Below are positions 43,623 through 48,131 of a DNA stretch of 64,000 bases, in pieces. This stretch comes from Planctomycetota bacterium (GTDB taxonomy: Bacteria > Planctomycetota > SZUA-567 > H5-PLA8). Positions within the stretch are counted from its first letter, which is position 1; every line of letters starts with the position of its first letter. The stretch is from assembly GCA_015075375.1 (NCBI GenBank), contig JABTUM010000001.1, forward strand, positions 2,289,201 through 2,353,200, in the 5' to 3' direction. A model generated the notes under the pieces. That model had not been told where the DNA came from and did not search any database. It saw only the letters and a list, made by a program, of their open reading frames with translations. A program made the position numbers and the translations under genes.

Positions 43623-44300
43623 ATGCATCGTTTCATCGTAGTGCTGAGTCTGGGACTGCTGCTGAGCGCGTTTCACGCGCGTGCCGAGATGGCGGCCGAA
43701 GGCACCGAATTTCGGCCCGAGGTCGATGCGCAAGCGTTGAGCGAACTGGAGGCGCGGCTGCAGAAAGAGTACGACGAAGCCGCACGGACCGGACAGCTCA
43801 GCGGAAACCAGGACGGCGGCAAGGTTAGGGGTGAGAAGGGCGACGGGAACAGGATGGCCGAGAAGCTCAAGGAGTTCGACGCCAACGGCGACGGGCAGCT
43901 CAGCGAGAAAGAGAAACAAGGCTTGCGCGTGGCCTTCGCCCAGCGCATTCGCAAAGATCCCGAGCTGCAAGCTAAAGTGCTGGAGAAGTACGACTTAAAC
44001 AAAAACGAAAAGCTCGACGACGACGAACAAGCGGCTATGGAAGGCGAAATGAAGGCCCACGTGGAAGGCATGAAGAAGCTCAACGAGCACCTGCTCAAGC
44101 GCTTCGATGCCGACGGCGACGGGAAACTGAACGAAGCCGAACGCGCCCAGGCCGAAGCGGGACGGAAGCAGTTCGAGGGCCGCATGCGCGAAGCGGCGCT
44201 GAAGCGCTACGACGCGGACGGCGACGGGAAGCTGAGCGCCGCCGAAGAAGCCAAAGCGCGCGAAGATTGGCAACAGCGCCGCCGCCAAGGCAACAAGTAA
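43623..44300 (+). CDS. Secreted EF-hand calcium-binding protein
   Basis: 225 residues with signal peptide MHRFIVVLSLGLLLSAFHARA. Four EF-hand loops at D86-E97 (DANGDGQLSEKE), D124-E135 (DLNKNEKLDDDE), D162-E173 (DADGDGKLNEAE) and D197-E208 (DADGDGKLSAAE). The second loop has Asn/Lys at inner ligand positions and may be weak. Long charged helices join the loops. Exported to the periplasm. First gene of a cluster with a redoxin (19 bp downstream) and a cytochrome c/PHM protein that also has EF-hands. GAGG lies 10 nt before the ATG. Confidence 0.88.
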   Translation: MHRFIVVLSLGLLLSAFHARAEMAAEGTEFRPEVDAQALSELEARLQKEYDEAARTGQLSGNQDGGKVRGEKGDGNRMAEKLKEFDANGDGQLSEKEKQGLRVAFAQRIRKDPELQAKVLEKYDLNKNEKLDDDEQAAMEGEMKAHVEGMKKLNEHLLKRFDADGDGKLNEAERAQAEAGRKQFEGRMREAALKRYDADGDGKLSAAEEAKAREDWQQRRRQGNK

Positions 44301-44319
44301 CCCTCGCTGCGATAAGACC

Positions 44320-44910
44320 ATGCGCAACTTCACCTGCTTGCTTGGGCTGATGCTCTGTGCCGCCGCAGGCGCCTCCGACGCCGGCCCCGCGTACACCGAT
44401 CTCGCCGGCCGCGAACAGCGCCCGCTCGCGTGCGCCGAACACAAAGCCACCGTGCTCGTCTTCATCGCGCTCGACTGCCCCATCGCCAATCGCTTCGCGC
44501 CCGAACTGAATCGGATAACCGAAGCGTATGCCGCGCGCGGAGTTGCGGTCTTTCTCGTGCACGCCGATCCGGACGTCTCCGCGGAAGCCGCGAAGCAGCA
44601 CGCCGCCGAATTCAAGCTCGCCGCCCCGGTGCTCCTCGATCCAGAACAGAAACTCGCCCAACACGTCGGCGCGACGGTGACGCCGGAGGCTGCGGTGTTG
44701 GATGCCACGGGCGCGCGCCGCTACCGCGGGCGGATCGACGACACCTATGAGAGCTTCGGCGACAAGCCGCGCAAAGAGCCGACGCGCCGGGACTTGCGCG
44801 AAGCGCTCGATGCGGTGCTGGCCGGCCAGGCGGTCAAGCACTCCGAGACCAAAGCCATCGGCTGCTTCCTGCCCAAACTCAAGCCGCCCGCCGAGGAGCA
44901 GCGCCCATGA
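44320..44910 (+). CDS. Secreted redoxin (AhpC/TSA-like thioredoxin fold)
   Basis: 196 residues. Signal peptide MRNFTCLLGLMLCAAAGASDA, then a thioredoxin fold: TVLVFIALDCPIANRFAPEL with single Cys C53 in the CPIAN motif (no CxxC), VAVFLVHADPDVS, and VTPEAAVLDATGARRYRGRIDD. A second conserved Cys, C182 in KAIGCFLP, may resolve C53. This form regularly accompanies copper-monooxygenase-like proteins. The stop codon overlaps the ATG of the next gene (ATGA), so the two are translationally coupled. It probably maintains thiols or copper redox state in the periplasm. Confidence 0.87.
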   Translation: MRNFTCLLGLMLCAAAGASDAGPAYTDLAGREQRPLACAEHKATVLVFIALDCPIANRFAPELNRITEAYAARGVAVFLVHADPDVSAEAAKQHAAEFKLAAPVLLDPEQKLAQHVGATVTPEAAVLDATGARRYRGRIDDTYESFGDKPRKEPTRRDLREALDAVLAGQAVKHSETKAIGCFLPKLKPPAEEQRP

Positions 44911-46502
44911 CGCGCGTGCTGGTTCTAACCGCTTGCTTGATGCTGACTTGCGCAGCGTTGCACGCGGCGACGCCCGAAGCGGCGTACACTCCGCGCCCGA
45001 AGGACACGCTCACCTACACGAAAGACATCGCGCCGATCATGAATCAGCAATGCGTAAGCTGCCACCGTCCAGGCGAAGTCGCCCCGTTTCCGCTGCAGAC
45101 GTATAAGGAAGTGGCCAAACGAGATGTACAGATCGCCATGGTCGCCGAAACACGCCTGATGCCGCCGTGGAAGCCCGTGGAAGGACACGGCCAGTTCCAC
45201 GACGAACGCCGCCTCAGCGCCGACGAAATCGGGATGCTCCAGCAGTGGGTCGACGAAGGCTCTAAGGAAGGCGATCCCAAAGACTTGCCGCCCGCGCCGA
45301 AGTTCACCGACGGCTGGCACTTGGGTGAGCCGGACCTGATCGTCGAGATGCCCGAGTGCTACACGGTCCCCGCCGAAGGGCGCGATATCTATCGCTGCTT
45401 CGTGGTGCCGTTGAACCTAAAGGAAGAGCGGTTTGTTAAAGCCGTCGAGTTTCGCCCCGGGAATCGCTCGGTCGTACACCACGCGATTCTGTACCTCGAC
45501 GATTCCGGCTGGGCGCGTAAGCGCGACGAAATGGACCCGCTCCCGGGCTACTCCAGCCTTGGCGGTCCCGGCGTGATTCCCAGCGGCGGCTTGGGCGGAT
45601 GGACGCCCGGCGCGACGCCCTACCCGTTCCCCGAAGGCGTTTCCAAAAGCCTTAAACCCAGCACCGATGTAGTGATGCAGCTTCATCTGCATCCCACCGG
45701 AAAGCCCGAGACCGAACGCTCCAAGCTGGGCCTCTACTTCGCCAAAGAAAAGCCCACACGCACCATGGCCGCGCTGACACTCGTCTCGCGCCGCCTCGTA
45801 ATCCCCGCCGGCGAAAAAGCTTACCTCGCCGCCGCGCGCGCCACCGTGCCCGTGGACGTCGAAGCCGTCGGCATCATTCCGCACGCGCATCTGCTCGCCA
45901 AAGACATCCGCGCCACCGCCTTCCTGCCCGACGGCTCGCAGCTACCGCTGCTCTGGATCGACGACTGGGACTTCAACTGGCAAGGTTCGTACCGCTACCG
46001 CGCCCCGGTTAAGTTGCCCAAGGGCACGGAGATCGAAGCGCGCTTCGTCTTCGACAACAGCGCCGAGAACCGCAACAACCCCAGCCATCCGCCCAAGCGC
46101 GTGACTTGGGGCGAGCAAACCACCGACGAAATGGCGCTCTTGTGGGTGCAGGTGCTCCCCGTTCAGGAGAGCGACGCGGCGGCGCTGCTGCGTTCGCCGG
46201 CGAACAAGTTCCTCGGCGCCTTTGCCGGCGGCGAAACCACGGCCACCGGCGCAAAGCCAGGCTCGGGCGCGGTTTCCTTCGCCGATAACGTCGTCAAACG
46301 CTTCGACGCCAACAGCGACGGGAAGCTCGACGCCGGCGAAGAAGCCAAGCTGGTCGAGACCTTCGACAAGCTGGTGGCGAAGGCCGGCCCGCGCATGAAA
46401 GACTTCCTGAAGCAGTACGACAACGACGGCGATGGCAAACTCAGCGACGCCGAGCGCGAATCGATCCGCAAACGCGTGGCTCAGGCCGCGTCCAAACCGT
46501 AA
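44907..46502 (+). CDS. Cytochrome c / copper type II (PHM-like) monooxygenase with EF-hands
   Basis: 531 residues. Signal peptide MTRVLVLTACLMLTCAALHA. A heme c site C49-VS-C52-H53 (QQCVSCHRPGEVAPF) is followed by a two-lobed PHM-like region: H191-H192 in RSVVHHAILYLD, H260-L-H262 in QLHLHPTG, H326-A-H328 in IIPHAHLLAKDI and M409 in TTDEMALLW, a set resembling the two copper sites of peptidylglycine monooxygenase. Two EF-hands end the protein (D467-E478 and D505-E516). Its ATG overlaps the redoxin stop. A periplasmic oxidase or monooxygenase with electrons entering through heme c is the natural reading; the substrate is unknown. Confidence 0.85.
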   Translation: MTRVLVLTACLMLTCAALHAATPEAAYTPRPKDTLTYTKDIAPIMNQQCVSCHRPGEVAPFPLQTYKEVAKRDVQIAMVAETRLMPPWKPVEGHGQFHDERRLSADEIGMLQQWVDEGSKEGDPKDLPPAPKFTDGWHLGEPDLIVEMPECYTVPAEGRDIYRCFVVPLNLKEERFVKAVEFRPGNRSVVHHAILYLDDSGWARKRDEMDPLPGYSSLGGPGVIPSGGLGGWTPGATPYPFPEGVSKSLKPSTDVVMQLHLHPTGKPETERSKLGLYFAKEKPTRTMAALTLVSRRLVIPAGEKAYLAAARATVPVDVEAVGIIPHAHLLAKDIRATAFLPDGSQLPLLWIDDWDFNWQGSYRYRAPVKLPKGTEIEARFVFDNSAENRNNPSHPPKRVTWGEQTTDEMALLWVQVLPVQESDAAALLRSPANKFLGAFAGGETTATGAKPGSGAVSFADNVVKRFDANSDGKLDAGEEAKLVETFDKLVAKAGPRMKDFLKQYDNDGDGKLSDAERESIRKRVAQAASKP

Positions 46503-46577: not shown

Positions 46578-48131
46578 ATGTCCACGCGCCCCAATCTGCT
46601 CCTGATCACCACCGACCAGCAGCGCTGGGATACGCTAAGTCTTTACGGCCAGCCCGGCTACCGCACGCCGGTGCTGGACCGCTTGGCCGCTAACGGGCGC
46701 TGCTTCGACCGCGCGTACTGTCCTTCGCCGATCTGCACGCCCAGCCGCGTGGCGATGCTGACCGGGCAGTATCCTTCGCGCAACGGCGCGCACACCATCG
46801 GCGTAACGCCCGCGTTTCGCGATCCCACGCTGCCGCAACTCCTTTCCGCGCATGGTTATGCTTCGGCCATGATCGGCAAGACGCACTTCGCTTCGCGCGG
46901 CATCGAAGCCAAGCACACCGCCGGGCGCTACGCGCCCGATCCCGCACAAGCCGATCCGCCCGATGCGTTCTGGCACAGCTACGACGGACCGTATCTGGGC
47001 TTCGATTTCGTCCGCGTCGGCTGGGGCCATACGAACGAGCGGATTCCCGGCGAGCACTACCGCGCGTGGTTGCAGCGGCAAGGCGTGAACTTCGACCGGG
47101 TGCATCGCGTGCATCCTATGGAGCCGCACCGCAAACTCCCTGGCGGAGAAGACGTTATCGAAACGGGCCTGTGGTCCAACCTGCCCGAGCGCTACCACAA
47201 GACGGCGTGGATCACGGAAGAGACGATCGGCTTCGCCGAGCGCCAGCAGGTCGCGGGCAAGCCGTGGTTCTGCTGGACGAGCTTCGAAGATCCGCATTTC
47301 CCGTTCGTCTGCCCCGATCCGTATTTCAGCGCAGTGGACATGAGCGCCGTCCGGCTGCATCGGCATACGCCGGGCGAGTTCGACGACCGGCCGCCCTTCT
47401 ATAAGCGCTACTACGAGACCGGCCAGTGGCACGACGGCGCGCGCGATTTCTTCGACGGCATCTCGGTGCCGGCCTGCCGTCGAAATCAATGGGTCGAAGC
47501 CCGCAGCGACACGCAGGCGTACATCGGCATGTGCAACATGCTGGACGTGTACGTGGGGCGCATCGTCGAACGGCTCGAGCGGATCGGCGCTCTCGAGAAT
47601 ACGCTGCTGATCTTCACCTCGGATCACGGCGAGTACCTCGGCCACCACGGGTTCTGGGGCAAGGGCCTGCCGGCGTACGAGGACGTGCACCGCGTGCCGT
47701 GCGTGGCGCACTGGCCGGCGGGCATGGCTAACGCACCCAAGGGCCGCACGGAGGCGCTTTTCAGCCTCGTCGATATCCCGCAGACCTTCCTCGACGCCGC
47801 CGGCGTGCCTGCGGCCGTGGGGATGCAGGGCGTTTCGCAGCTTCCGGTGCTGCGCGGCGAAAGCTCTGGCGCGCGGGACTGGGCGCTGATCGAGAACCAC
47901 GCTACGCCGCGCGTGTACCAGCAATCGTTCGTGACCCGCACGCACAAGCTGGTTGTGTACCGCGATGCGGAGTACGGCGAACTGTACGACCTGAGCGCCG
48001 ATCCGGAGCAGACGGCCAACCTCTGGTCCCGCGCCGAGCACGCGGCGCTGCGCGAGCAGCTGCTGCGGCGCTTCCTGCAGGCCAACATGGCCAAAGACGG
48101 GATCCAACCCAAACGCCTGTACGGCGCCTAA
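46578..48131 (+). CDS. Sulfatase (arylsulfatase/heparan-sulfatase-like, formylglycine type)
   Basis: 517 residues. N-terminal NLLLITTDQQRWDTL (metal-binding DQ), the classic signature C53-TPSR57 in SPICTPSRVAMLTGQYPSR, whose Cys53 is the formylglycine site, MIGKTHFAS with catalytic Lys near 97, and FTSDHGEYLGHHGFWGKG near 345. The C-terminal subdomain ends ELYDLSADPEQTANLW. No convincing signal peptide. It shares little beyond family motifs with sulfatase 1, so the two likely differ in substrate. Stands alone upstream of the hsp20-lon pair. Confidence 0.93.
   Translation: MSTRPNLLLITTDQQRWDTLSLYGQPGYRTPVLDRLAANGRCFDRAYCPSPICTPSRVAMLTGQYPSRNGAHTIGVTPAFRDPTLPQLLSAHGYASAMIGKTHFASRGIEAKHTAGRYAPDPAQADPPDAFWHSYDGPYLGFDFVRVGWGHTNERIPGEHYRAWLQRQGVNFDRVHRVHPMEPHRKLPGGEDVIETGLWSNLPERYHKTAWITEETIGFAERQQVAGKPWFCWTSFEDPHFPFVCPDPYFSAVDMSAVRLHRHTPGEFDDRPPFYKRYYETGQWHDGARDFFDGISVPACRRNQWVEARSDTQAYIGMCNMLDVYVGRIVERLERIGALENTLLIFTSDHGEYLGHHGFWGKGLPAYEDVHRVPCVAHWPAGMANAPKGRTEALFSLVDIPQTFLDAAGVPAAVGMQGVSQLPVLRGESSGARDWALIENHATPRVYQQSFVTRTHKLVVYRDAEYGELYDLSADPEQTANLWSRAEHAALREQLLRRFLQANMAKDGIQPKRLYGA

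Follow-up and report, generated by a model that had tools for sequence, protein, structure and literature searches.

A cytochrome c–PHM-like–EF-hand protein encoded next to a redoxin: a bacterial member of the PHM/DBH superfamily

In animals, the textbook two-copper enzymes that depend on ascorbate are PHM and DBH, and hydroxylases of this kind serve to finish hormones. In PHM, H242 and H244 are ligands of the CuM site, and R240, N316, and Y318 anchor the peptide carboxylate. The CuH ligands and the CuM ligand M314 have been named in earlier work, and Q170 and Q272 have been described as holding an interdomain water network between the two copper sites (PMC6123673). For another group of copper enzymes, the bacterial LPMOs, it is known that a c-type cytochrome domain can reduce their copper and drive them (PMC8981238). 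In a literature search of incomplete coverage, neither a heme c-PHM family nor bacterial PHM-like heme proteins were found to have been described; names based on Pfam domains may already be attached to these proteins in public databases.

The protein described here (ORF3) is encoded in a stretch of 64,000 nucleotides from a Planctomycetota bacterium, the whole of which is referred to below as the window. It is similar to rat PHM (1phm/1opm/3mll) in its double jelly-roll, its three-His CuH site, its CuM site of His-x-His plus Met, and its counterparts of Q170 and Q272, but it is bacterial, a heme c domain lies in front of the copper domains and an EF-hand tail behind them (TPR in some relatives), the R240/N316/Y318 anchors are not conserved, and no PAL partner is encoded among the neighbours scanned. 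With DBH (4zel) it shares the same two-copper fold, as matched by profile and by fold, whereas no DOMON domain was recognised in ORF3, which has heme c instead. The likeness to the Cbp2D CjX183 cytochrome with AA10 LPMOs would lie in a small c-type cytochrome that serves a secreted copper monooxygenase; however, the LPMO is an unrelated copper enzyme and the cytochrome is there located on another protein (PMC8981238).

Gene order at the locus

The three genes form a row on the + strand (Table 1), with 19 nt between ORF1 and ORF2 and an overlap between ORF2 and ORF3. The original prediction had described this row as encoding an EF-hand protein followed by a CPIAN redoxin and a single polypeptide that combines heme c, PHM-like domains, and EF-hands, and all of these ORFs and motifs are present. 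The translational coupling that it also proposed is likely, as the redoxin stop and the ORF3 start have an ATGA in common. Four EF-hand loops were found in ORF1, as claimed, and its match to Pfam EF-hand_1 is over the cut-off (E 1.4e-12). The presence of heme c, PHM-like domains, and two EF-hands on the single ORF3 chain is borne out by the CVSCH motif, the family profile, the fold, and the two loops.

Table 1. Features of the locus, with positions in the window. Invariance refers to 78 aligned sequences drawn from the best 80 of at least 589 confirmed loci plus the window, the rows having been chosen to hold CXXCH and PPW.
Feature	Position	Strand	Remarks
Secreted-looking EF-hand protein (ORF1)	43623..44300	+	225 aa, signal-peptide-like start, four loops
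ORF1 EF-hand loops	DANGDGQLSEKE 43878, DLNKNEKLDDDE 43992, DADGDGKLNEAE 44106, DADGDGKLSAAE 44211	+	
Redoxin gene (ORF2)	44320..44910	+	196 aa, thioredoxin fold, signal-peptide-like start
ATGA overlap, redoxin stop/ORF3 start	44907..44910	+	
Cytochrome c–PHM-like–EF-hand protein (ORF3)	44907..46502	+	531 aa, signal-peptide-like start
CVSCH heme c attachment motif (C49, C52, H53)	45051..45065	+	invariant 78/78
MPPW, M85 probable distal heme ligand	45159..45170	+	invariant 78/78
H191-H192, predicted CuH ligands (PHM H107/H108)	45477..45482	+	profile alignment, 78/78
H260, predicted third CuH ligand (PHM H172)	45684..45686	+	profile alignment, 78/78
H326-A-H328, predicted CuM ligands (PHM H242/H244)	45882..45890	+	profile alignment, 78/78
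Q359 (PHM Q272), in WDFNWQxxY motif	45981..45983	+	invariant 78/78
M409, predicted third CuM ligand (PHM M314)	46131..46133	+	DEM motif; profile alignment, 78/78
ORF3 EF-hand loop DANSDGKLDAGE	46305..46340	+	residues 467-478
ORF3 EF-hand loop DNDGDGKLSDAE	46419..46454	+	residues 505-516

Upstream of the operon lies a divergent Gfo/Idh oxidoreductase, and a sulfatase with a CTPSR signature (46578-48131) is located 75 nt downstream. A sulfatase also adjoins the operon in a genome of the same genus (G001); in G002 and G006 no such neighbour was found. No promoter or terminator signal above shuffles was obtained at the operon, and no PAL domain or partner was detected in a scan of the neighbouring genes at 39-51 kb. 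Among 101 adjoining ORFs that were scanned, no family occurred in more than three cases, and no recurrent metabolic neighbour points to a substrate. The ORF3 protein is present in a single copy in the source genome. In the nearest relative, G001, two apparent frameshifts distribute the PHM-like gene (L113 5579-7181) over three frames; they may reflect decay or long-read indels.

Superfamily membership and conserved residues of ORF3

When ORF3 alone was compared with Pfam, its matches to Cu2_monoox_C (E 0.0046), Cu2_monooxygen (E 0.18), CBB3 (E 0.006), and EF-hand_5 (E 4.3e-5) were all under the cut-off. The PF03712 and PF01082 models gave 16.9 and 12.4 bits, versus curated cut-offs of 23 and 30, and at E <= 0.01 they matched 35/58 and 15/58 relatives, respectively. 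These scores reflect the limited sensitivity of the models and are not a defining biochemical feature. A family profile built from 58 sequences (the window and 57 relatives) matched PHM among the PDB sequences with an E of 1.1e-10, with all six ligands aligned, and DBH with an E of 0.00077. The AF2 model of ORF3 (mean pLDDT 87.4, core about 95) contains the two tandem jelly-roll domains of the PHM fold, and the top 31 PDB matches in a fold search with this model were all PHM or DBH, the best of them being PHM 3mll (E 2.6e-15; target TM about 0.6), with DBH 4zel matched at E 4.8e-13. As the profile, the fold match, and ligands conserved in 78/78 sequences agree, the doubt left by the single-sequence Pfam scores is removed, and ORF3 is a true member of the PHM/DBH superfamily.

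The alignment used for the ligands omitted 3 of the 80 loci, which did not hold the CXXCH and PPW by which rows were chosen. Of its 384 core columns, 23 are invariant across the 78 sequences (from the best 80 of at least 589 loci), and these include C49, C52, H53, M85, H191, H192, H260, H326, H328, M409, and Q359. Additionally, Q258, two residues before H260, corresponds to PHM Q170 and is kept in 67/78. The copper ligands originally proposed are thus retained as H191/H192/H260 for CuH and H326/H328/M409 for CuM, but H262, which had been listed with them, was rejected, since it is His in only 46/78. With regard to the heme, both features expected of a c-type cytochrome, CXXCH and a candidate distal ligand, are present and invariant among rows that were selected for CXXCH/PPW; this probable distal ligand, M85, is not mentioned in the original prediction. 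In an independent sample of 30 loci of the phylum that were found by the PHM domain alone, the heme motif was located in front of PHM in 27 of the 29 scorable cases.

The residues corresponding to PHM R240, N316, and Y318 are I324, L411, and W413, and they vary freely across the 78 sequences. Because these anchors are not conserved, ORF3 is probably not a peptide amidator and its substrate probably no peptidyl-glycine, and the chemistry of PHM is not transferable to it. With the catalytic residues of PHM kept and its substrate pocket not, the protein is therefore best regarded as a putative non-amidating enzyme of the PHM/DBH type. The previous description of a periplasmic copper oxidase stands insofar as signal peptides and CXXCH point to a periplasmic PHM-type copper enzyme with heme c; however, the conserved sites being those of a monooxygenase, an oxygenase or hydroxylase fits better than an oxidase. 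These same sites bear upon the direction of electron flow. Periplasmic dehydrogenases usually release their electrons through a covalently attached cytochrome c, and ORF3, whose cytochrome is tethered in this manner and near which no source of reductant is encoded, could be a copper dehydrogenase in which a substrate is oxidised at the two-copper site and heme c passes the electrons to the respiratory chain. We consider this unlikely, as the conserved sites are exactly those that activate O2 in a monooxygenase, including a CuM with Met and the Q170/Q272 pair.

The relatives were drawn from genomes of the same phylum and from GTDB representatives, the latter by a pattern scan that confirmed at least 589 loci; the analysis used the best 80 of these. 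The matches listed come from Planctomycetota, Acidobacteriota, Verrucomicrobiota, Armatimonadota, Rokuibacteriota, Bacteroidota (Kapaibacterium), Ignavibacteriota, Latescibacterota, Myxococcota, and others, amounting to at least about ten phyla. Within the same phylum, the family is carried by 83 of the 199 sampled genomes (about 40%). The maximum of 14 PHM-like copies in one genome is reached in G185; G142, of the same genus, contains 11, and several of the copies lie in tandem (e.g., G185:C46:37960-42290 and G142:C233:133-4514). In L010/L136 (G031), the redoxin start leads almost directly into the PHM domain and the heme domain is missing, due to either deletion or an assembly fault. A further alternative is that these are non-catalytic copper-heme proteins for the storage, delivery, or sensing of copper. 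Thioredoxin-like proteins, such as the partner encoded here, often serve in the assembly of copper sites; nevertheless, the strict conservation over many phyla of two distinct mononuclear sites and of an active-site Gln is better accounted for by catalysis, and the expansion of paralogues in some genomes, to 11-14 copies, resembles that of enzymes diverging in substrate. A non-catalytic role is thus very unlikely.

The redoxin partner

The ORF2 protein matched Pfam Redoxin/AhpC-TSA over the cut-off (E 1.8e-10), and its model (pLDDT 92.8) is closest to the thioredoxin-like structures 3u5r, 2ywi, and 2cvb, followed by ResA. With the first three it shares the fold (TM about 0.72-0.77), a Cys equivalent to C53, and a C-terminal Gly-Cys, but it differs from them in being secreted-looking, in its CPIAN motif, and in being tied to a PHM-like partner. 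ResA and CcmG have the same thioredoxin fold with an active-site Cys at the same place; however, their CxxC is absent from the redoxin of the window, where Ala takes the place of the second Cys (CPIA). The protein contains a single N-terminal active-site Cys, C53, and a C-terminal C182, each of which is present in 41/42 sequences. The Gly-Cys that includes C182 (44863-44865) is nearly invariant together with C53 and occurs also in 2ywi and 3u5r. From their co-conservation, C53 and C182 could possibly form a disulfide or a Cu(I) pair.

The redoxin partner identified in the original prediction proved to recur, fused or adjacent, across many phyla; a fused form is found, for instance, in Rhodopirellula, at the R. 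europaea locus L100. Among 90 loci, including the best 80 of at least 589, it was N-fused in 16, C-fused in 2, upstream in 22, and downstream in 13; it was not seen in 35, and 2 were unscorable. It is thus fused or adjacent in 53 of the 88 scorable loci of this set, and its arrangement has changed at least 28 times on the tree. As this association has been re-established repeatedly in every possible order, there is strong evidence for a joint function of the redoxin and the PHM-like protein. The redoxin is not strictly needed, however, since about 40% of the relatives have none nearby.

A recurrent partner of the AhpC/TSA clan, the only one that recurs, could also indicate that the protein is a periplasmic copper-heme oxidase or peroxygenase that forms or uses H2O2, with the redoxin removing peroxide, and in PHM H2O2 can substitute for O2 plus reductant (PMC6123673). 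The features of the redoxin itself speak against this. The peroxiredoxin motif PxxxTxxC is absent, C53 being preceded by L46 and A50, and the closest structural matches are the thioredoxin-like ones listed above and then ResA, rather than peroxidases. Peroxiredoxin activity of the redoxin was rejected due to the absence of this motif, and we view a peroxide-linked enzyme as improbable.

EF-hands and the proposed reaction

The EF-hand tail of ORF3 scored 23.2 bits with Pfam, just under the cut-off of 25.9, and contains two canonical 12-residue loops. A second match of ORF1, to the type III effector XopAW (NCBIfam, E 6e-14), was rejected, as its 52 bits, versus a cut-off of 120, derive from the EF-hand repeats only. 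About 78 kb upstream of the operon, the gene of another EF-hand protein, with at least four loops, lies close to a sulfatase (L118 5102-5911, G000:C1:2255101-2255910). A DNA pattern for D-x-[ND]-G-D-G gave 32 sites in the genome versus 0 in the control, a number that probably includes repeats other than EF-hands.

These loops had suggested a calcium-tuned enzyme, in which Ca2+ bound by the tail and by the EF-hand protein would switch the activity. In favour of this, the loops are canonical in both proteins, the gene order is kept in G001, G002, and G006 (the separate EF-hand gene, at the same position in these genomes, is missing in G005), and EF tails have been gained or lost about six times on the tree. 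However, most relatives lack the tail or have TPR in its place: among 90 sequences, including the best 80 of at least 589 loci, 18 have an EF tail, 29 other long tails, and 43 a short tail or none, and Pfam recognised TPR repeats in 13 of 58 cases. Furthermore, the linker preceding the tail (residues 441-457) has a pLDDT < 50 in the ORF3 model, and the separate EF-hand gene was found only in operons of the window's own taxonomic family; at the best 80 of at least 589 loci, the operons yielded no more than three candidate ORFs, all of them doubtful or distant. EF tails and the redoxin did appear to be associated (17/18 vs 36/70; Fisher p 0.0008), but the association is not significant once kinship is considered, and joint evolution was not accepted because the tree contains only about two informative independent pairs. 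The calcium-tuned description was therefore not upheld; control of catalysis by calcium is highly unlikely, and an exchangeable module for docking or stability fits the EF-hands better.

The reading that we favour, and hold to be reasonably probable, is that ORF3 acts in the periplasm as a two-copper oxygenase of the PHM/DBH type, which has its own heme c as electron donor and is served by a dedicated thiol-redox partner. The N-terminal heme c would accept electrons from the respiratory cytochrome c pool and pass them to CuH and CuM, thereby taking the place of ascorbate; such a feed from heme to copper can reasonably be inferred by analogy with the cytochrome-driven LPMOs. O2 would be activated at CuM and a substrate, probably no peptidyl-glycine, would be hydroxylated. 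The co-translated redoxin would most likely keep heme attachment (CXXCH thiols) or copper-site assembly (copper loading) in order, or act as a redox partner that supplies or removes redox equivalents, and the EF-hand tail and EF-hand protein would be peripheral modules for docking or stabilisation outside the active site. More tentatively, a broad bacterial PHM/DBH branch in which a covalently joined cytochrome c replaces ascorbate, and which has a dedicated redoxin with one active-site Cys as partner, might hydroxylate small molecules in the periplasm, with Ca2+-dependent docking of the EF-hand protein to the complex in the bacterial family of the window.

A bacterial branch in which all catalytic ligands are intact, and which is equipped with a heme c of its own as well as a redox partner that recurs, would constitute a large pool of enzymes. 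How the two coppers come to be reduced is an old question, for the study of which proteins of the ORF3 type would offer a built-in one-electron donor.
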